A DNA stretch of 41,601 nucleotides from an uncultured Oscillospiraceae bacterium (GTDB lineage Bacteria > Bacillota > Clostridia > Oscillospirales > Oscillospiraceae), in contig CALWVS010000052.1 in assembly GCA_944385095.1 (NCBI GenBank), forward strand, positions 1 to 41,601, written 5' to 3'. Positions 19,540 through 28,100 of this stretch are shown piece after piece. The number at the start of each line of letters is the position of its first letter. Position 1 is the first letter of the stretch. The notes beneath the pieces were generated by a model. It was not told where the DNA came from. It saw nothing but the letters and a program-made list of their open reading frames with translations, and did no database searches. The position numbers and the translations under genes are program-made.

Positions 19540-19575
19540 AAATAAAAGAAACCAATATTATATGGAGTGAGAACT

Positions 19576-20019
19576 ATGGATATTAAAGAGGTAAGAGAAG
19601 ATAAAAAGCAATATCTTAATTTGCTGTTATTGGCAGATGAACAGGAAAATATGATAGACCAATATCTTACAAATGGGACAATGTATGTTTTAGAAGATAA
19701 TGGAGTCAAGGCAGAATGTGTTGTGTTAGATGTTGGTGGAGGAGTGCTTGAAATAAAAAATATTGCCACAGACCCACAGTTTCATGGTAAGGGTTATGGT
19801 AGAGCATTGATAGAGTTTATTATCAAAAAATATAAGAGAGATTATTCAATATTGCAGGTTGGAACAGGTGACAGCCCATCAACAATCCCATTTTATGAAA
19901 GGTGCGGTTTTATCCGTTCTCATATGATTAAGAACTTCTTTGTTGATCATTATGACCACCCAATTTATGATGGTAGTGTGAAACTGATAGATATGATTTA
20001 CTTGCGAAAACATATATAG
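19576..20019 (+). CDS. GNAT-family acetyltransferase
   Basis: A 147-residue GNAT acetyltransferase. The acetyl-CoA-binding motif A is IKNIATDPQFHGKGYGRALIEFII (about 59-82), containing the Q/RxxGxG/A pattern HGKGYG. It is followed by YSILQVGTGDSPSTIPFYERCGF, typical of a YjaB-like subgroup. The substrate is unknown. I chose ATG 19576 because GGAGTGAG lies just upstream; an in-frame GTG at 19567 is possible. It stands alone between the lysS terminator and the XRE gene. Confidence 0.83.
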   Translation: MDIKEVREDKKQYLNLLLLADEQENMIDQYLTNGTMYVLEDNGVKAECVVLDVGGGVLEIKNIATDPQFHGKGYGRALIEFIIKKYKRDYSILQVGTGDSPSTIPFYERCGFIRSHMIKNFFVDHYDHPIYDGSVKLIDMIYLRKHI

Positions 20020-20062
20020 GAGCAAACTTGTGACCAATATATCCAATGTTAATATGCGTTGC

Positions 20063-20091
20063 TTGTAGCAACAGCTTGTTTTGAGTACAAT
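20063..20091 (+). promoter_or_regulatory. Promoter of the XRE-regulator gene
   Basis: TTGTAG, a 17-base spacer, then TACAAT, about 35 bases upstream of the start codon. Confidence 0.5.
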
Positions 20092-20126
20092 AGAGGCGAC
20101 AACGAAAAGAAAGGTGGTCATCCATA

Positions 20127-20636
20127 ATGTTAAATGAAAATATTAAATCTATTAGAAAGTCAAAAGGGTTTTCGCAAGAAGAACTGGCTATTAAACTAAA
20201 TGTGGTGCGTCAAACAATTTCAAAATGGGAAAAAGGCTTGTCTGTCCCTGATTCCGATATGTTGATTTCTATATCAGAAGCACTGGAAACTCCTGTAAGC
20301 ATTTTGCTTGGAGAAACGATAGATGAGCCAAAGATGGATGACTTAAAAGTGATTTCTGAAAAGCTTGAGATTATAAATCTCAAGCTCGCCAAAAGGAAAA
20401 CAACAAGACGAAAGATATTTCATTGGGGTTTTATCTCATTGTGTGGGTTGATAGTAATTATTTTTGCAGTTTTATTTGTACTGAATAGTCCATATTTGGA
20501 TTGGGATTATAACAATCCTGAAACCGCAGTTATGGGAGTAGGCTTTCACGCATTGGAGTGGCTGTTCGTCAGAGTATCACCGATTGCCCTAATTGTAGCA
20601 ATTGGTGGAGTCGTTTTGACACGGGAGAAAAAATAG
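20127..20636 (+). CDS. Membrane-anchored XRE-family regulator
   Basis: A 169-residue protein. The N-terminal XRE helix-turn-helix (about 1-62) contains FSQEELAIKLNVVRQTISKWEKGLSVPD. A short helical linker follows, then two hydrophobic segments (about 98-118 and 142-162). This arrangement of DNA-binding head and membrane tail is common in Firmicutes, where such proteins may sense the membrane or partner with small transporters. The target is unknown. AGAAAGGTGG lies upstream of the ATG. Confidence 0.85.
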   Translation: MLNENIKSIRKSKGFSQEELAIKLNVVRQTISKWEKGLSVPDSDMLISISEALETPVSILLGETIDEPKMDDLKVISEKLEIINLKLAKRKTTRRKIFHWGFISLCGLIVIIFAVLFVLNSPYLDWDYNNPETAVMGVGFHALEWLFVRVSPIALIVAIGGVVLTREKK

Positions 20637-20676
20637 CTTATGGAAAGAAGTTAGGTGATTTTAGCATAAGAATCAT

Positions 20677-20718
20677 AGGGACTATGGGAAGTTTCCACTT
20701 TTCATGGTCCTTATTTTT
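20677..20718 (+). terminator. Intrinsic terminator after the XRE gene
   Basis: A 16-pair stem with four G-U pairs (AGGGACTATGGGAAGT against ACTTTTCATGGTCCTT), TTCC loop, then ATTTTTGTTTT. Confidence 0.75.
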
Positions 20719-20771
20719 GTTTTAGTATAATGCTCACTGTTTTCTCATACACTACTTTTGGGTGATCAATA

Positions 20772-21245
20772 ATGAACAGTAAAAAATGGATTCAGTATGG
20801 AGGTTGGATTTTCATCACTGTGGCGATAGGTGGTCTCTCTGGCTATCTGACAAGAGATGGAGTAGAACTATATAACCAGACCATACAACAGCCTCCATTA
20901 TCTCCACCTAGCATTGTTTTTCCCATTGTTTGGGGCATTCTCTATATTCTGATGGGTATCAGTGCAGCACGCATTTATATGTCTCAGCCATCGGATACAC
21001 GCACAAAAGCAATGGTTCTGTATGTGGTTCAACTTGTTATGAATTTCTTTTGGAGCATAATTTTTTTCAATTTGCAAAAGTTTGGAATTGCATCCTTATG
21101 GTTGGTCATTTTATGGAGTCTCATTCTGGCGATGATACTTGTGTTTCGAAAAATAGATGTCATTGCATCCAGATTACAGATTCCATATCTATTGTGGGTC
21201 ACATTTGCAGCATATCTCAATCTTGGGGTCTGGTTATTAAATTGA
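20772..21245 (+). CDS. tspO: TspO/MBR-family membrane protein
   Basis: A 157-residue, five-helix membrane protein of the TspO/peripheral benzodiazepine receptor family. Markers are GGLSGYLTRDG near the start, the conserved PPLSPPSIVFPIVWGILYILMG (about 41-62), VVQLVMNFFWSIIFF (about 86-100) and the closing WVTFAAYLNLGVWLLN. The family binds tetrapyrroles and other hydrophobic ligands and has been tied to porphyrin handling and stress. The role here is unknown. It converges on the 3' fragment of sigG across a shared bidirectional terminator. Confidence 0.92.
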   Translation: MNSKKWIQYGGWIFITVAIGGLSGYLTRDGVELYNQTIQQPPLSPPSIVFPIVWGILYILMGISAARIYMSQPSDTRTKAMVLYVVQLVMNFFWSIIFFNLQKFGIASLWLVILWSLILAMILVFRKIDVIASRLQIPYLLWVTFAAYLNLGVWLLN

Positions 21246-21247
21246 TA

Positions 21248-21286
21248 AAAGTTGGGAACTTGCCTGATGTGTGAGTTCCCAACTTT
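21248..21286. terminator. Bidirectional terminator between tspO and the sigG 3' part
   Basis: Perfect 13-bp stem (AAAGTTGGGAACT and its complement) with a 13-base loop. A's precede and T's follow, so it can serve both converging genes. Confidence 0.8.
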
Positions 21287-21293
21287 AGTTCTA

Positions 21294-21794
21294 TCACAAT
21301 TCTTTTTTAATTTGGCGCAAGGCATTCTTTTCAAGACGGGATACCTGTGCCTGAGAAATTCCAATTTCCTCTGATACTTCCATTTGTGTTTTGCTTTGAA
21401 AAAAACGCATTTTTAATATCTTTTGTTCTCTTGGAGAGAGATGTGCAACTGCGTCTTTGAGAGCAATGTGTTCTAACCATAGATCATCTGTATTTTTATC
21501 ATCTTTGACTTGATCCATGACACATACTGTATCGCCACTTTCAGAATAGATTGGCTCATAAAGAGAGACAGGCTCAATCATGGCGTCCAATGCGAACACA
21601 ACGTCTTCTCGTTTTATGTTGAGAAGAGATGCAATTTCATCTACAGAAGGTTCTTTCTGATTCTGGGTGATATATGCCTCTTTTGCTTGTAAAACTTTAT
21701 AAGCGGTATCTCGCATGGAGCGGGAGATTCTTAGTGTGCTATTATCTCGTAAATAGCGACGAATCTCTCCTACAATCATTGGGATTACTAACAA
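21294..21794 (-). pseudogene. sigG: sigG, 3' part (sigma-G regions 2.3-4), separated by the element
   Basis: The C-terminal 161 codons of the forespore sigma factor sigma-G, beginning MIVGEIRRYLRDNS at 21779. It contains the -10-recognition region 2.4 (RISRSMRDTAYKVLQ), region 3 and region 4 with the helix-turn-helix KTQMEVSEEIGISQAQVSRLEKNAL. The open frame extends into the element to a TTG at 21794 (MLVIP) with no convincing ribosome-binding site, and would lack the core-binding region 2.1-2.2. So as it stands it should not make a working sigma factor. It would be joined in frame to the 5' part at 27756-28035 when the element is removed: proline codon CCA is shared by both junctions. I label it a pseudogene only for the unexcised state. 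Confidence 0.93.
21779..21784. repeat. Left attachment-site core (TTGGGA)
   Basis: Six bases identical to 27750-27755 at the exact point where sigma-G homology stops. Flanked outside by sigG sequence and inside by TTACTAACAAAAGT, one arm of the inferred circle site. Confidence 0.85.
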
Positions 21795-21902
21795 AAGTCA
21801 TGAAATAAAGTTTTTTGATTTTCTCTTATTACATTTCCCTATCAGGCTGCATAGGATAGAGAGAACTAAGGCTCAAGTAAAAAATAGGAGTTGATCTATG
21901 AT

Positions 21903-22007
21903 ATGGGAATGCCAGTGATTACACCAAGCAATACCACCAGAACACAGGCAATTACAGACATCATTGAGTTTGTGGCATTGGAGGAAACCGCACTTTCCCA
22001 CATTTGA
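21903..22007 (+). CDS. 34-residue ORF, probable 5' end of the surface-protein gene
   Basis: A short frame starting MGMPVITPSN, with AGGAG about 11 bases upstream, ending at a TGA in 22005-22007. Its TRTQAITDIIEFVALEETALSHI is clearly related to RCQAISDLIESVALQQAALSHI at the far end of the next ORF, so the same domain occurs twice and this copy is cut short. It overlaps the start of the larger frame out of register (+1). Because the larger frame has no ribosome-binding site of its own, this may be its true beginning, separated by a frameshift or by a fusion event. Confidence 0.5.
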   Translation: MGMPVITPSNTTRTQAITDIIEFVALEETALSHI

Positions 22008-22773
22008 ATACAATGTATTTGTATTTCAGTCCATGAATATGAGCAACACAGATGCAGAAGGCAGGGTAGCAGTTGGCGGAACTGCTACGTTGAGTAATTA
22101 TGGGGTTGCTGCCACTAGGATACAGGCAAGAAAAATACTGTGGAACTATCCAGATGCACTGACTTGGTCCAATAGTACGACTGCCATTTATGGTTCTGTA
22201 CTGGCACCATTTGCCACAGCAAATACCACATTTAGTCAAATTAACGGTAATATCATTTTTTCTTCCTTTAACGGAAATGCCGAAAGTCATAATGAGTTGT
22301 TTGTTGGAGAACTACCAGACCCAACAGTATGTCTTTTGAGTACCAGCAGTACAACCTCCAGTACAACAACAAGCACTACTAGCACAACTACAAGTACTAC
22401 CACAAGTACAACAAGTAGCAGCACTACCACAACCAGTACTAGTAGTACTACCAGTTCAACAACTAGTAGTAGTACAACCACATCAACGACTACAACGGTT
22501 GCTCCTTTGCCACGTTCACCACGTTGTCAGGCAATTTCAGACCTAATAGAATCAGTGGCACTGCAACAGGCGGCTCTGTCCCATATTTTAAACGCTGAGG
22601 GAGAGAAGCTGCAAAGAATCATTGCTTATGAGATGGTTTCCCATGAGACAATTTTATCTGCCAACCAGTCGGTAGAATCTATGGTGCATTCCATCTCTCA
22701 GCTAGAAATGATTTTGCAAGATAAACTGGACTTGTTCAAAGATTGCTATTGTTGTGACTGTGAGAATATCTAA
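21964..22773 (+). CDS. Ser/Thr-rich (mucin-like) surface protein with choice-of-anchor-A-like domain
   Basis: The frame encodes, in order: a domain (from EYNVFVFQSMNMSNTDAEGRV to about residue 118) that reads like a shortened choice-of-anchor A/collagen-binding-like domain, with VAVGGTATLSNYGV and YGSVLAPFAT; about 55 residues made almost only of Ser and Thr (22335-22494); and a C-terminal helical domain with IESVALQQAALSHILNAEGEKLQ and a terminal Cys cluster (CYCCDC). The last domain recalls, from memory, surface and collagen-like spore proteins of Clostridia. The Ser/Thr tract is a likely target for O-glycosylation by the adjacent glycosyltransferase. No ribosome-binding site is seen for TTG 21964 or ATG 22033, so the true start is uncertain; translation probably enters from the 21903 frame. 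Confidence 0.6.
   Translation: MSLWHWRKPHFPTFEYNVFVFQSMNMSNTDAEGRVAVGGTATLSNYGVAATRIQARKILWNYPDALTWSNSTTAIYGSVLAPFATANTTFSQINGNIIFSSFNGNAESHNELFVGELPDPTVCLLSTSSTTSSTTTSTTSTTTSTTTSTTSSSTTTTSTSSTTSSTTSSSTTTSTTTTVAPLPRSPRCQAISDLIESVALQQAALSHILNAEGEKLQRIIAYEMVSHETILSANQSVESMVHSISQLEMILQDKLDLFKDCYCCDCENI
22335..22494 (+). repeat. Low-complexity Ser/Thr codon tract
   Basis: About 160 bases built from ACA/ACT/ACC and AGT/AGC triplets in irregular order, encoding the mucin-like segment. The mixed codons argue for selection on the protein rather than recent triplet slippage, although length change by slippage is easy here. Confidence 0.85.
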
Positions 22774-22781
22774 AAATGTGC

Positions 22782-22801
22782 CGTAACAGTTTTCTGTTAC
22801 G
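22782..22801 (+). other. Small hairpin between the surface-protein and glycosyltransferase genes
   Basis: CGTAACAG, TTTT, CTGTTACG: a perfect 8-bp stem without a following T-run, so more likely an RNA processing or attenuation structure than a full terminator. Confidence 0.45.
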
Positions 22802-22824
22802 CCAATCTAATAGGAGGATATGGC

Positions 22825-24108
22825 ATGAAAGTTGCAATTTTAACTATGTTTAATGGTTTATCTACCACTTATTCTCTTGTGAATGTGGTAGCTGACCAAC
22901 TAAATATGTTGCTGGATGCAGGTATTTCTGTCAAATTGTTGGTGAGTGAGCACTGTCCAGAAAGAGAGCGATGGGGTGTTTTTTTAGATGAACGAATTGA
23001 GTGGGTGAAAATCAAGAATACTTTACATGGAAAACAAATCCAGTGGTATGATTATTCTATTCCAGTAGGTGTTGTACATGATACTTTCTTTGAGGAAACA
23101 GAGTTGATTGCAGAAGATTTTGTGGCACATTTGCAGGATGTCGATGTGTGTATCATGCATGATATTCTCTATCAGGGATGGCATTTGGTACACAATGTGG
23201 CAATTCGCAAGGCACAGTTGAAATTACCTCAGTTGCGATTTCTGGCTTTTACACATTCCCTGCCGGTGAATCGTCCAAAAGAAATCAGTGCTCCCTTTGA
23301 TGCCAGATATACACCAATGCCAAAAACAAAATTTATATATCCTACTTATTCTGGTATTCCAGCTCTTGCAAGACAATATAATATACCAGAAGGGAATTGT
23401 GCGGTGGTCTATAATGCTATGCCATTGCTGGAAACAATGAGTGATGATATTAAAAGAGTGTCAAATTCCATTGATTTACTCAATAGCGATATTTTATGTG
23501 TTTATCCAGCCAGACTCACTACAGGAAAGCGGTTAGAAAAAGTAGTAGCTTTGGCAGGAGCGATTCAGACAGAAACAGAGAAATGTGTAAAGGTTATATT
23601 TTGTGATTTTCCAAGTGCGGACATTCCAAGTTCAATCTATCGCCATAATATCCGTATGGAAGGTAAACGGTATGGACTGGAAGATGAAGATATTCTGTTT
23701 ACTTCAGAAATTGGATACCCAGGTGGGTTTCCCAGAAGTGGGGTTTTGGAATTGTTCCAGCTATCTAACCTCTATATTTGTCCATCCTATTCAGAATCGT
23801 TTGGATTGACCGTATTAGAAGCTGCCAGTAAAGGAAATTTTTTGGTGTTAAATGAGGCGGTTCCAGCATTGCAGGAGTTGGGGCATACATTGGGAGCTTA
23901 TTTTATGCGATGGGATGCAAGAAATTTTGGGTATGATACCCAAGAGAAGTATCAGCCATCTGAGCTGGCATATTATCGGGAACATGGTGCAAAAATTGTC
24001 AACTGTATGCGAGAGGATCGCAGTTTACAGGCAAAAACTTTGGTACGGACACAGTATAATTTGAAATGGATCTGTCGAAATCAACTGTTGCCATTGTTAG
24101 AGAGTTGA
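22825..24108 (+). CDS. GT4-type glycosyltransferase
   Basis: A 427-residue glycosyltransferase of the GT-B fold. The C-terminal nucleotide-sugar-binding half has CVYPARLTTGKRLEKVV (about 221-237) and the family signature YICPSYSESFGLTVLEAASKG (about 311-331), containing the E-x7-E motif. No signal peptide or membrane segment, so it acts in the cytoplasm. The donor and acceptor are unknown. Its place 50 bases after the Ser/Thr-rich protein gene on the same strand suggests that it decorates that protein. ATG start with TAGGAGG 7 bases upstream. Its 3' end overlaps blaR1 by 28 bp tail-to-tail. Confidence 0.85.
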   Translation: MKVAILTMFNGLSTTYSLVNVVADQLNMLLDAGISVKLLVSEHCPERERWGVFLDERIEWVKIKNTLHGKQIQWYDYSIPVGVVHDTFFEETELIAEDFVAHLQDVDVCIMHDILYQGWHLVHNVAIRKAQLKLPQLRFLAFTHSLPVNRPKEISAPFDARYTPMPKTKFIYPTYSGIPALARQYNIPEGNCAVVYNAMPLLETMSDDIKRVSNSIDLLNSDILCVYPARLTTGKRLEKVVALAGAIQTETEKCVKVIFCDFPSADIPSSIYRHNIRMEGKRYGLEDEDILFTSEIGYPGGFPRSGVLELFQLSNLYICPSYSESFGLTVLEAASKGNFLVLNEAVPALQELGHTLGAYFMRWDARNFGYDTQEKYQPSELAYYREHGAKIVNCMREDRSLQAKTLVRTQYNLKWICRNQLLPLLES

Positions 24109-25601
24109 GAAGGTATTGTGAGTTGATTGAGTAAATCCCAGTCAATGTCATCTGAGGTATGATACTGTATGATCTCTTTGTCTGGCGGCAAAGTAGCTAC
24201 TTCTGCAAAATCATCAAAAAGAGAGATGATGATAGTGTGGCTGTTACTTTCGTAACATAATACAAAACGTGCTTCGGTCTGTTCAAAGTGATAGTGCCCA
24301 ATCAGTTCCTCCATAGTCAAGGAAGAAAGATAGGTTTGCAATGCAGCTTCATTTAATACAGTTTTAGGGATTTTCTGTTGATTTTCCCAAATATAACATT
24401 CCTGTAAAGTATATGGTTCCCCATATTGGGATGGAAGTAGCACATCTTTCCCTGTTTTTCCACTATAAGCAAGTGTCACATATCCACAAGTGAGATAGAG
24501 TACAAGAACGATGATCCCAACCAGCAATGGGGCAGAATGTTTTTGAGTTGGTTGCATGATAGACTTTAAACGATAACGCATAGTAGCAGCAGAAGCGGAA
24601 AGACAGGTTGTAAACCCACGTTCTGTTCCAGCAGTATTGAGAATTAACTCAGCATAGTGTTTTCTGGTTGGTTCGTCTGCATCTAGTAGCACTGTTTCAT
24701 CACAGCATAGTTCCATATCTTCTGCACTTTTTTTCATAACAATCCACATAAGGGGATTAAACCAACAGATTGAGGTACAAAACGCAAAGAAAAATTTTGA
24801 CCATCCATCTTCACGACCAATATGCGTTAATTCATGACGAAAAATAAGAATCAATTCCTGTGTGGTGTAGTGCTGATCAGGCAATACCACACAGATTTTC
24901 TTTTTCCATAATCCGATGGAAAGGGGAGATGATATGACAGGTGAGTGGACTATTTGGGGAAATGGATGCTTTATCTCTGCCAGTTCCAGTTCAGTATTCC
25001 ATATCGCTAGAATAGCAGAATCGGAAATATGTGTGGCGTATTTCATCACCTGATGGCGAAAGAAGATATGGGAACAAATTTGGAATCCAAAGAACAGCAA
25101 AAATCCAACCAGCCATACCCAGAATATACCATGTATAAGTATAGGTGAAGCTGGAATGATAATAAGAGGTCTTTGCATCTGCAAGTAGTAGTTTACATAG
25201 AGGAAGCTTGGAAACATCCAAAGTGTAGCACAGGTGCTGGCATAAAGATAGCGACGGAACAGAGGCAGTAGTGGCAGCAAAATCAGATAATAGATTGTGA
25301 TATGTAAAAATATACCAAAGCAAAAAACAATCATCTGTTTTTGCAAAGAAGATGGGGAAAATATCAGTTCCATAACAAAAATGGTTGAAATAAAAATCAT
25401 CAGAGGCAAACCAGAGATATGACGAAATCTGGAAGCCACTTTATTTGTGTTATTTACTGACCAATCTGTGTATTCCCATACAATAAAAAGAGGAAAGAAA
25501 AAACTCCAAAACAATCGAGTATCCTTGACATTTAAAGAAATGAGAAAGAGTAACACAAAAATGGAACATAATAGAACAATTTTTGAAATTTTGAGTTTCA
25601 T
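24081..25601 (-). CDS. blaR1: BlaR1-type M56 membrane metallopeptidase (no penicillin-binding domain)
   Basis: A 506-residue membrane antirepressor. Several hydrophobic segments (about 5-25, 50-70, 80-115, 145-175) precede the zinc-protease motif HELTHIGREDGW (about 252), then FNPLMWIVMKKSAEDMELCCDETVL, the M56 hallmark. One more membrane segment (about 355-375) is followed by a ~120-residue outside domain. That domain is not the penicillin-binding sensor of staphylococcal BlaR1, so the signal is something else. By analogy, signal binding triggers intracellular proteolysis that removes BlaI. ATG start directly follows the blaI stop. No beta-lactamase gene is nearby, so antibiotic sensing is not supported. 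Confidence 0.88.
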   Translation of the reverse strand: MKLKISKIVLLCSIFVLLFLISLNVKDTRLFWSFFFPLFIVWEYTDWSVNNTNKVASRFRHISGLPLMIFISTIFVMELIFSPSSLQKQMIVFCFGIFLHITIYYLILLPLLPLFRRYLYASTCATLWMFPSFLYVNYYLQMQRPLIIIPASPILIHGIFWVWLVGFLLFFGFQICSHIFFRHQVMKYATHISDSAILAIWNTELELAEIKHPFPQIVHSPVISSPLSIGLWKKKICVVLPDQHYTTQELILIFRHELTHIGREDGWSKFFFAFCTSICWFNPLMWIVMKKSAEDMELCCDETVLLDADEPTRKHYAELILNTAGTERGFTTCLSASAATMRYRLKSIMQPTQKHSAPLLVGIIVLVLYLTCGYVTLAYSGKTGKDVLLPSQYGEPYTLQECYIWENQQKIPKTVLNEAALQTYLSSLTMEELIGHYHFEQTEARFVLCYESNSHTIIISLFDDFAEVATLPPDKEIIQYHTSDDIDWDLLNQLTIPSQLSNNGNS

Positions 25602-25979
25602 TTAAAGGGTCCCCCTTTCTAAAAGATCACGTAGCTGTGCTAGTTCTTCTTTACTTAAGCCACTGTCACAGAGGGCTGTTGCAAAGGTGGATAGGTTACC
25701 ACCACAGAGTTTTTGGAAAAAACGCATACTCTGTTGTGCCAGGTACAATTCCTTGGAAATGAGTGGGGTATAAAGATGGGCTTTACCTTGTTTCTCAATA
25801 TGGAGAAATCCTTTTTCTGAAAGTCGTGTGAGTACAGTGAGTAATGTGGTAACAGCCATAGGGTGGGAGGAAGATAGTCTCTCTTGAATATCAGTTCTTG
25901 CGGCAGGGGATGGGCAATCCCAGAGAGCCTGCATCACTTCCAATTCTGCATCTGGTAATTTGCGAATGAGTTGCATCAT
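25602..25979 (-). CDS. blaI: BlaI/MecI-family repressor
   Basis: A 125-residue winged-helix repressor: LPDAELEVMQALWDC at the start, the recognition part MAVTTLLTVLTRLSEKGFLHIEKQGKAHLYTPLIS (about 41-75), then the dimerisation helices. The dimer binds dyads with TACA/TGTA-like halves; two such dyads lie in its own promoter region (25998-26009 and 26015-26044). BlaR1 is its likely inactivator. Divergent from the small ORF and the recombinase, so it may also influence excision. Start: the second ATG of MMQL is close to AAAGGAGGTGG and either could be used. Confidence 0.9.
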   Translation of the reverse strand: MMQLIRKLPDAELEVMQALWDCPSPAARTDIQERLSSSHPMAVTTLLTVLTRLSEKGFLHIEKQGKAHLYTPLISKELYLAQQSMRFFQKLCGGNLSTFATALCDSGLSKEELAQLRDLLERGTL

Positions 25980-25997
25980 AAAACCACCTCCTTTCTT

Positions 25998-26009
25998 CTA
26001 CATTTGTAG
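25998..26009. promoter_or_regulatory. BlaI-type operator 2
   Basis: CTACATTTGTAG, a near-perfect 12-base dyad containing TACA/TGTA halves, lying just after the predicted blaI transcription start. Confidence 0.7.
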
Positions 26010-26014
26010 TATCT

Positions 26015-26044
26015 AAGCATATTCTACAATTATAGAATATGCTT
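26015..26044. promoter_or_regulatory. BlaI-type operator 1 (30-base palindrome)
   Basis: A 30-base palindrome with 14 of 15 pairs matching (outer arms AAGCATATTCTACAA). It spans the spacer and -10 box of the blaI promoter, an ideal place for autorepression, and lies about 12 bases from a possible -35 box for the divergent recombinase operon. Confidence 0.82.
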
Positions 26045-26049
26045 GTCAA
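26021..26049 (-). promoter_or_regulatory. blaI-blaR1 promoter
   Basis: On the minus strand TTGACA, a 17-base spacer, then TAGAAT, fully overlapped by the 30-base palindrome. Confidence 0.75.
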
Positions 26050-26105
26050 GAGAGTTTGATTAAAAAAAGGAAAAGAGGTTACAATGGAAGTGGAGGTGTT
26101 TTGCA

Positions 26106-26270
26106 ATGATATTTCGTCACTATGACTGTAATGGAGCAGCAATTTCAAGAAAACAGCTTCAAGAAATGCAGATTTCCACACCAGTTATGGAACACGTTTT
26201 TTCTGCTGTGGTACAGCGACTGGAGAAGTCTGAGGAGAAGTTGAGGAATACAGAACATGGGGCGTTCTAA
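26106..26270 (+). CDS. 54-residue basic/helical protein ahead of the recombinase
   Basis: An ORF beginning MIFRHYDCNG and ending EHGAF, with TGGAGGTG about 8 bases before its ATG. It contains a basic SRKQLQEMQ stretch followed by a long amphipathic helix (MEHVFSAVVQRLEKSEEKLR). Its stop overlaps the recombinase start by 14 bases, so the two are translationally coupled. I recognise no family. Small proteins encoded beside large serine recombinases often act as recombination directionality factors (for example SprB of SPbeta, 58 residues), so that role is a reasonable guess only. Confidence 0.65.
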   Translation: MIFRHYDCNGAAISRKQLQEMQISTPVMEHVFSAVVQRLEKSEEKLRNTEHGAF

Positions 26271-27690
26271 GATGATGAAGGTGGTGCAAGCCACCTCAGA
26301 ACTGGTATTGGCTCTTTATGTGAGGGTGTCCACTGATCGTCAAGCAGATGAAGGATATTCTATTGACATTCAGTTGGAGAAGCTCAATGCCTATGCCAAA
26401 ACGTTCTCTGGTGTAAGGGATGTGCGTCACTATATAGATGATGGATATAGTGGAGCCTCCCTTGACCGTCCACAAATGGGAAAATTGATTACAGATATTG
26501 AGGCAGGAGAAATTACCCATGTAATTGTGGTAAAATTGGACAGATTGAGCCGCTCCCAAAAAGATACATTACATCTGATTGAAGATATTTTAATTCCTCA
26601 TAATGTGGCATTTATTTCTATTTTGGAGAGCTTTAATACAGACAGTGCATTTGGACGAGCCATGGTTGGAATCTTGTCTGTGTTTGCTCAATTAGAACGT
26701 GAAAATATATTTGAACGAACAAGAGGTGGTATGAGGAAGAGAGTGGAAGATGGTTATTGGCCTGGTGGAGGTCGTGTGCCATTTGGCTATAATTATGACA
26801 GCCACCTTGGTATTTTAGTACCAAATGCAGATGCACCAAAAGTCCGATATATCTACCAGCGATATTTGGATGGGGCTTCTTTACAGGCGATTGCAGATGA
26901 ATTGGACTTAAAATATGAAAAATTGGTCTATAATATTTTGACAAGAAAGAGCAATGCAGGATATATTACCTATAATGGAGAAGAATTTTTAGGACGGCAT
27001 GAACCTATTATTCCTCTAGAGTTGTATGAAAAGGCAATGGAGCTGTTTGAAGCACGTTCCAATCATAAATTAGTTTGTAAAACACCACACCTTTTGACTG
27101 GTATGGTACGTTGTGGACGGTGTGGAGCAAAAATGAGATATTTGAAATGGGGAAAGGCAGGCTATAAATTGGTCTGTTATTCTCAGCAAAAGAGTAAGCC
27201 ATATTTAATACGAGATCCAGACTGTGACAACCCAGCACCATGGGCAGAAGATGTGGAAAACGGTGTGATTGATACCTTGTTCACTGTATCAAAGGAACAT
27301 CTTGAAGCGGCAAAACAGACTGCAAACTCTATGGACCCAACGATCCTATTGAATGAAAAAAAGGAAAGATTAGAGACAAAGCTGCGTAGACTCTATGATT
27401 TATATGGAGAGGGGGGAGATGAGGTTCTACTTTCTTCTATTCGAGAGACAAAAGAACTTCTGTCTGAACTGAATATGTCAATAGAGCAAATAGATAGACA
27501 ATCCCATGAAAAGCTGCGCAGGGCCGCATTGAATACAGTAGAACATCTTGAAAATATTCGGGATACCTGGTCAGATATGAGTACACAAGAACAACGTATG
27601 GTACTTGCTTCTGTGATTGAATCTATTACTGTCAATGGAGAATATACTGATATTCGTTTAAAATTTGGATTAAATGAAGGAACTGGCTGA
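26257..27690 (+). CDS. Large serine recombinase (integrase/excisionase of the sigG element)
   Basis: A 477-residue serine recombinase. The resolvase-type catalytic domain (about 15-160) has the nucleophile Ser25 in YVRVSTDRQ, plus KLDRLSRSQKDTL and the conserved ERENIFERTRGGM. The recombinase domain (about 165-270) starts GGGRVPFGYNYD. A zinc-ribbon region has CGRCG (about 286) and two further cysteines, and a coiled coil (about 350-430, LETKLRRLYDLYGE...) follows. This matches SpoIVCA-like and phage/ICE serine integrases. It lies at the end of the element, 60 bases from the att core at 27750, as expected. ATG start with TTGAGG about 10 bases upstream, overlapping the 54-residue ORF. Confidence 0.96.
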   Translation: MGRSKMMKVVQATSELVLALYVRVSTDRQADEGYSIDIQLEKLNAYAKTFSGVRDVRHYIDDGYSGASLDRPQMGKLITDIEAGEITHVIVVKLDRLSRSQKDTLHLIEDILIPHNVAFISILESFNTDSAFGRAMVGILSVFAQLERENIFERTRGGMRKRVEDGYWPGGGRVPFGYNYDSHLGILVPNADAPKVRYIYQRYLDGASLQAIADELDLKYEKLVYNILTRKSNAGYITYNGEEFLGRHEPIIPLELYEKAMELFEARSNHKLVCKTPHLLTGMVRCGRCGAKMRYLKWGKAGYKLVCYSQQKSKPYLIRDPDCDNPAPWAEDVENGVIDTLFTVSKEHLEAAKQTANSMDPTILLNEKKERLETKLRRLYDLYGEGGDEVLLSSIRETKELLSELNMSIEQIDRQSHEKLRRAALNTVEHLENIRDTWSDMSTQEQRMVLASVIESITVNGEYTDIRLKFGLNEGTG

Positions 27691-27715
27691 ACTTGTTAGT
27701 TAAGTTCAGCCAGTT
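27681..27715. terminator. Hairpin at the recombinase stop, inside the sigG junction region
   Basis: A perfect 14-bp stem (AACTGGCTGAACTT and complement) with a 7-base loop, overlapping the recombinase stop, followed by TGTTTGTTTGTG. It would end recombinase transcription. On the minus strand it could also weaken read-through from the sigG 5' part into the element. Confidence 0.7.
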
Positions 27716-28035
27716 TGTTTGTTTGTGTTTTCTGCACTTCTGTCATTCGTTGGGACACCATAGGTAGAGAAACGTACATCTAAGTCTGTGTTGAAGTTGT
27801 CAATTGCTTTCATTAGACCAATACATCCAACCTGAAAAAGATCATCCACATTTTCGCCACGATTGGAGAAGCGGTGAATGACAGAAAGAACAAGACGTAA
27901 GTTACCAGCAATCAAAGTTTCTCTTGCTTGCTTGTCACCTTGTTTTGCCCGCAGTAAAAGTTCCTTTACCTCATCATTTTTTAATACTTTTAACTGTGTC
28001 GTGTTGACACCACATAGATCTACTTTATACTGCAT
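27706..28035 (-). pseudogene. sigG: sigG, 5' part (sigma-G regions 1.2-2.2), separated by the element
   Basis: Starts MQYKVDLCGVNTTQLK, as sigma-G proteins do. It keeps LIAGNLRLVLSVIHRF and GENVDDLFQVGCIGLMKAIDNF (core-binding region 2.1-2.2), then FSTYGVP, where homology stops at residue 95. After this the frame runs 14 residues into the element (TNDRSAENTNKQTG) and ends. Joined to the 161 codons at 21779 it gives a 256-residue protein, close to the 257-260 of known sigma-G. I chose the ATG at 28035, with GAGGAGG 7 bases upstream; an upstream in-frame start at 28098 is not sigma-G-like. A forespore-type promoter lies just upstream. It is cut off from its 3' part only while the element is present. 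Confidence 0.95.
27750..27755. repeat. Right attachment-site core (TTGGGA)
   Basis: Second copy of the 6-base core. The element-side flank ACTTCTGTCATTCG is an inverted, imperfect match to the element-side flank at the left end. Confidence 0.85.
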
Positions 28036-28071
28036 ATCAAATCCTCCTCTTTGGAAGCGGTGTTCTTTGCT

Positions 28072-28100
28072 CAGTATTTCCCATATCCGATATTTCATAC
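28072..28100 (-). promoter_or_regulatory. Sigma-F/sigma-G-type promoter of sigG
   Basis: On the minus strand GTATG, 14 bases, then GGAAATACTG. The second box fits the forespore consensus GGNNANANTR at every defined base; the first fits 4 of 5 of GYATA. It leaves a leader of about 30 bases before sigG, as expected for forespore expression. Confidence 0.65.

Follow-up and report, generated by a model that had tools for sequence, protein, structure and literature searches.

The skin element of sigK, known from B. subtilis and C. difficile (CD1231/CD1234), interrupts a sigma gene of late sporulation, and a large serine recombinase joins the gene precisely. Excision of the C. difficile element is restricted by a small recombination directionality factor in the CD1231/CD1234 system, according to excerpts of PMC5025042. 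Other recombinase-bearing elements of sporulation genes, as excerpts of PMC5595907 and PMC10747680 describe them, are gin in gerE (B. cereus), yin in yabG (C. botulinum), vfbin in spoVFB and SPbeta in spsM; gin is not phage-like, and all four sit in genes other than sigG that have late or mother-cell functions. Neither article has the word sigG in its main text. Here we describe an arrangement akin to skin in sigG, which encodes the forespore factor sigmaG (excerpts of PMC5025042, in line with established knowledge). It was found in a stretch of 41,601 nucleotides, hereafter the window, from an uncultured Oscillospiraceae bacterium (GCA_944385095.1, contig CALWVS010000052.1). Probably, a large serine recombinase keeps sigG in two parts while the cells grow, and the gene is joined during sporulation, permitting sigmaG activity. 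A full-text search of the open-access literature, with most subscription journals outside its scope, found no element in sigG, the described ones lying in sigK, gerE, yabG, spoVFB and spsM; a preliminary description of the window had likewise known of no characterised serine-recombinase element in this gene. We count the sigG arrangement among the gene-intervening elements.

The window carries sigG in two minus-strand parts. The 5' part (27750–28035) starts with an ATG at 28035, matches positions 2–93 of the sigG profile (TIGR02850) at 28026–27751 and ends, after FSTYGVP, with Pro 95 (27753–27751) as its final sigG codon; the 3' part (21294–21784) matches positions 91–253 at 21788–21300. The core TCCCAA is present at both edges of the break (27755–27750 and 21784–21779), with a spacing of 5,971 bp. 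It belongs to two directly repeated minus-strand junctions: one attL-like (27720–27755), in which the sigG half-site and the core are followed by the element half-site P, and one attR-like (21779–21820), in which the element half-site P' precedes the core. Joining the two parts in silico at TCCCAA yields a sigG of 256 aa that aligns with that of the intact relative G004 at 79% identity and with zero gaps. As with skin, precise removal of the element thus restores the reading frame in silico, and the element brings its own site-specific recombinase. The break at FSTYGVP, the core at each edge and the precise join had all been put forward in the preliminary description and are borne out. That description also hinged on there being no other complete sigG in the genome, and our search of the assembly (2.43 Mb, 59 contigs, 98.9% complete) found no second full-length copy, the next-best profile match being sigF-like (181 bits, cut-off 457). 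No split genome has a match at or above the sigG family cut-off, and likewise no intact genome does.

Sigma region 2 (Sigma70_r2) is found only on the N half of the window sigG, and regions 3 and 4 are on the C half. Such a division would also suit halves that are translated separately and act in trans as a two-subunit sigma factor; two-subunit sigma factors do exist, SigO–RsoA being a precedent. We nevertheless consider this very improbable. The C part in the window lacks a start codon of its own with a ribosome site, C halves elsewhere have no conserved start or ribosome site either, and inspection of the sequences gave no sign that both parts are independently translated. From one genus to another, the sequences preceding PMI are unrelated, the N tails after GVP vary, and a recombinase with matched half-sites, needless for a protein working in trans, is kept.

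The same break recurs in many genomes. Among 64 genomes of the genus, 57 have a full sigG, three have it split at the same codon, one has it cut by a contig end and three, which are 58–85% complete, have no sigG. In a set of 400 genomes of the family, we checked the 30 with partial best matches (E about 1e-101 to 1e-62), leaving out weaker best matches. Twenty-four of these are split at the same codon (18 with both halves, six with only the C half among the matches listed), and in the remaining six a contig end or a frameshift accounts for the partial match. Adding the window and genome G034 brings the number of family genomes with this break to at least 26 of 400; that the break is widespread had escaped the preliminary description. 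When one genome per species was scanned and the best 80 of 297 recombinase loci were kept, a partial sigG match lay at 60 of the 80 and a full sigG at none. The genomes of 14 such loci were searched; both halves were found in 12, a count that is not a rate, as 13 of the 14 had been chosen with a sigG piece already visible. The other two were G849, with an N half and a foreign full copy, and G853, with none. Records with sigG-linked recombinase loci are titled Oscillospiraceae, Flavonifractor, Oscillibacter, Lachnospiraceae and Defluviitaleaceae.

Most of these assemblies are metagenome-assembled genomes (MAGs), in which an apparent split may stem from assembly or binning, and this did happen. 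G200 was rejected as a split owing to a frameshift, G327, G335, G197, G064 and G054 owing to contig ends, and G192 owing to two N alleles, 94% alike, that end at a shared 128-nt contig overlap. Apparent mixtures of joined and split copies in G849, G856 and G858 were also dismissed: the full-length copies differ in sequence and most likely come from contaminating organisms in the bin. As an explanation of the break itself, an artefact is nonetheless extremely improbable: the same codon is hit in records not titled MAG (Flavonifractor An112, An82, AGMB03687), and both junctions lie within one contig in the same-contig cases. Dozens of other assemblies have sigG interrupted at this codon as well, so the precise break in sigG is more than chance.

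We next consider the recombinase, a protein of 477 aa encoded at 26257–27690 on the plus strand, relatives of which adjoin sigG fragments. Its Resolvase, Recombinase and zinc-ribbon (Zn_ribbon_recom) domains, its best PHROG match (phrog_95, 4e-112) and a palindromic attP identify it as a large serine recombinase. The best-scoring NCBIfam models are XisF, the recombinase of the Anabaena fdxN element, and CcrB of SCCmec, at scores far below the curated cut-offs (118.7 of 375 and 151.8 of 900 bits, respectively). Relatives in phage collections show identity below 60% in 972 of 972 records, and other serine recombinase genes in the same genome (G000 C46:689–1300, C46:4393–4986 and C27:14083–14703) show 28–34% identity. 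We defined the recombinase type by a match with E <= 1e-120 to a profile built from 20 sigG-linked recombinases. In the genus, this type is present in all three split genomes and in none of the 61 others. In the family, with the best four candidates per genome scored, it occurs in 25 of 400 genomes, comprising 23 of the 26 split ones and two of the 374 others (G384 and G418), neither of which has a full sigG. The split genomes lacking a match are G102, G440 and G185, the last with a partial recombinase at a contig edge. Seven of 392 genomes of the class have the type; six are split and the seventh, the complete genome G814, has the weakest recombinase match and no sigG match. Recombinase and sigG distances are uncorrelated between genera (r = -0.05; nine genomes, one per genus) and correlated over all 20 genomes (r = 0.69), which points to horizontal spread of the recombinase between genera and co-inheritance within them. 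In g5, a Mob/Pre-like relaxase gene, recognised by eye, lies upstream of the recombinase (L090 4985–5962, L088 10483–11469), which suggests a mobilisable element there.

The flanks beyond the sigG break are inverted copies of each other, as expected of attP halves. Over 18 positions, half-sites of the same pair match at 12.6, those of other genomes in the same genus at 11.3 and those of other genera at 7.6, against 4.5 by chance. The own-pair score was reached in 0 of 20,000 permutations for 19 genomes and in 1 of 20,000 for nine genomes with the halves on separate contigs; G067 and G235 escaped the pattern. In the predicted attP of the window, 12 of 22 positions are paired between the arms, versus 5.5 by chance. 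The 3' end of the recombinase gene normally faces one half-site, with other DNA intervening in G174, G250, G845 and G846. Two small open reading frames (ORFs) accompany the recombinase. One, of 54 aa, overlaps the recombinase start in the window (26106–26270, plus strand) and is a candidate directionality factor or recombinase partner; its profile has a match upstream of the recombinase in 70 of 80 loci, and in 41 of the 51 not used in building it. The other, the 'MTRK' ORF, is absent from the window and adjoins the half-site opposite the recombinase in G063, G067, G235, G250, G843, G850, G851 and L172. MTRK proteins have about 180–210 aa (L045 4056–4607, L172 8874–9431, L252 13382–14023) and almost no matches in Pfam, PHROGs or NCBIfam, with a weak HNH_repeat similarity in the two members tested.

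On another reading, the halves are relics: an ordinary mobile element would have taken sigG as its attB and left the host unable to sporulate. The sporadic occurrence in the window genus (3 of 64), the horizontal spread that the uncorrelated distances indicate and the weaker selection in some groups (below) are in keeping with this explanation. However, substitution patterns indicate that both sigG halves are under purifying selection while split: between the window and G034, omega (dN/dS) is 0.009 for the N half and 0.018 for the C half at a synonymous divergence (dS) of 0.53–0.61, and it is 0 to 0.05 in g23 and 0.02 to 0.04 in g4 where dS is not saturated. The window and G034 also share the element, which is about as alike between them as its flanks (83–100% in 200-base windows). 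In genus g4, selection persists and the split C half is present in 10 of 11 genomes, seven of which also have a listed N half that reaches the break. Two full-length g4 copies differ by about 20–26% from the halves in the same bin, as measured on the longer aligned pieces, and are therefore most likely foreign. Genes for small acid-soluble spore proteins (SASP), a target of sigmaG, exceed the cut-off in all 22 genomes tested, 15 split and seven intact. Loss of sporulation with sigG left in fragments thus appears quite unlikely.

Split sigG also retains its promoter. We used a forespore promoter model of 13 sites from 18 SASP regions, scanned in fixed upstream windows; the sites were chosen after an earlier, looser scan, and one is one base out of register. 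Ahead of each of 21 split N parts, the top-scoring forespore-type site reads GNATN-spacer-GG..ATACT(A/G). It is located 55–65 nt before the reference codon in 19 cases and 105–113 nt before it in two, and reaches 12 bits in 10 of the 21 (1.1% expected in shuffles). The sigmaF/G-type site of the window itself, GTATG-N13-GGAAATACTG (28073–28100, minus strand), scores 8.2 bits, below the 12-bit line. Forespore-type promoters of at least 12 bits also stand just before the small ORF in a minority of recombinase operons, 10 of 67 (0.5 expected; 0 of 60 control windows), and in 8 of 54 sigG-linked recombinase loci (0.3 expected).

Taken together, selection on both halves, matched half-sites, the recombinase, and the kept SASP genes and sigG promoter make it very probable that the halves are rejoined at the DNA level, and the forespore is the likely place of joining. 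Joining could instead be random phase variation, with only some cells finishing spores and nothing programmed about it; the 57 of 67 recombinase operons without a forespore-type promoter of 12 bits or more would fit this. On the other hand, the recombinase-bearing assemblies show the split form and no joined form, and the promoter-bearing subset of operons points to forespore expression, so we think random joining unlikely.

A programmed switch would work as follows. A serine integrase alone converts attP and attB into attL and attR, and with a directionality factor it performs the reverse reaction. The recombinase would use one site inside sigG, between FSTYGVP and MIxGE, as attB, and because it acts one way without a directionality factor, the vegetative cell would be locked in the split form. 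In the forespore, the recombinase and a directionality factor, for which the 54-aa ORF and the 'MTRK' ORF are candidates, would recombine attL with attR and rebuild sigG behind its own forespore promoter, leading to sigmaG activity; in the window, the products would be an intact sigG and a 5,971-bp circle carrying attP. After germination, the recombinase alone would restore the split gene, a step needed because the forespore chromosome is inherited. Here the parallel with skin ends: the mother cell, in which sigK acts, dies and does not pass the excision on, whereas the DNA of the forespore, in which sigG acts, is inherited. Confinement of excision to a terminal mother cell is therefore expected to fail for a sigG element. 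Of the developmental switch envisaged in the preliminary description, a restoring rearrangement has good indirect support, whereas excision, its timing and its cell are what we infer. Missing from that description is that a simple excision in the forespore would remove the element from the germ line, and that some genera have no excisable element between the halves.

Several observations weigh against programmed joining. No joined sigG was found in a recombinase-carrying genome, the full copies in G849, G856 and G858 most likely being those of other organisms, and, since forespore excision is heritable, a re-integration step has to be assumed. Within genera, half-site pairing is not significant (1,335 of 20,000 permutations). 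Selection on split sigG is weaker in g5 and g40 (omega 0.10–0.15) and in g96 (0.22/0.38), where it is perhaps relaxed. We found no good forespore-type promoter before the recombinase operon of the window (8.1 bits) or, under the same model, before the SASP genes of the window, G034 and G843. Neither candidate directionality factor matched a family of known function. Finally, dS between the window and G034 is uneven (window 19567–28098 versus L043, excluding a misaligned TspO-like host gene): it is 0.53–0.61 for the sigG halves and the recombinase (0.54 for the latter), 0.15–0.26 for the cargo and 0–0.24 for four flanking host genes, which indicates that the region is a mosaic.

In the window, the recombinase and the 54-aa ORF are accompanied by cargo. 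A 30-bp palindrome (26015–26044) occupies the divergent blaI/recombinase promoter region. It is followed by genes for a BlaI/CopY-type repressor (25602–25979) and a BlaR1-type M56 membrane peptidase (24081–25601), both on the minus strand, and by plus-strand genes for a glycosyltransferase (22825–24108) and a Ser/Thr-rich choice-of-anchor-A surface protein (21964–22773). The surface protein is about 140 aa shorter than its G034 copy (L043 7335–8573), apparently through an internal deletion, and a partial second copy of its 3' region lies beside the C half of sigG (21945–22008 versus 22528–22591, 72% identity over 64 nt).

The content between the halves differs widely among genomes. Where both are on the same strand of the same contig, the interval is 2.5 kb in L172, a minimal cassette of the MTRK ORF, a small ORF and the recombinase, 3 kb in L180, and 6 to 7 kb in the window, in G034 and in five g23 genomes (G085, G180, G243, G292 and G448). 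Longer intervals span 15 to 17 kb in G845, G846 and G851, 25 kb in G174 and 170 kb in G843, and some, such as that of G845, include host-like metabolic genes recognised by eye. The G843 interval (C5:57127–227517, L244–L252; record titled Lachnospiraceae bacterium isolate C64_1) is a prophage with tRNA genes, recognised by eye from ORFs that resemble terminase, portal and tape-measure genes. It recalls active lysogeny in Listeria, where the comK prophage leaves to restore the host gene and re-enters later. Unlike in comK, the target is a developmental sigma factor, and the same site is used by tiny cassettes and by junctions without an element.

In these element-less junctions, again unlike skin, the sigG halves abut ordinary chromosome, with one half beside the recombinase. 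Beyond the N half, G063 has NusB, TsaD, XseA and prenyl synthase genes, and G844, G852 and G854 appear similar by eye. In G234, by contig position, neither the 144 kb beyond N nor the 158 kb before C reaches the other half; the 48 kb and 28 kb sampled there, respectively, contain host-like genes (RNase HII, acetate kinase and Rnf by eye; threonine synthase, asparaginase, MatE and AI-2E transporter by Pfam). A tRNA-Arg(CCT) gene lies at most about 320 nt from the N break in 4 of 4 g4 loci scanned. Since excision would cost essential genes in this class, inversion or two circles would be the logical alternatives; reversible inversion seems the likeliest route, a reversible split into two circles being the other. 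In G330, the halves are on opposite strands, and a single inversion of a 3.7-kb block comprising the N half and the recombinase would account for the gene order. It is possible, if not quite probable, that sigG is built in the forespore of several genera (g4 with HGW-Firmicutes-16, G063 and others) by inversion or some other rearrangement of a large chromosome segment, which is turned back again in the germinated cell. This would be a lossless, reversible germ-line rearrangement gating spore maturation and derived from elements once in sigG, with G330 as a miniature. If inversion is shown, the class would be new in kind.

Split sigG occurs widely in gut Clostridia, which rely on spores for transmission, and would escape annotation in these species if a full-length sigG is sought. 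It is accompanied by a recombinase family dedicated to one conserved site. If programmed joining is true, we know of no earlier developmental DNA rearrangement in the forespore line, where the rearranged DNA is inherited, and such a rearrangement, unlike skin-like systems, would call for a reset step.

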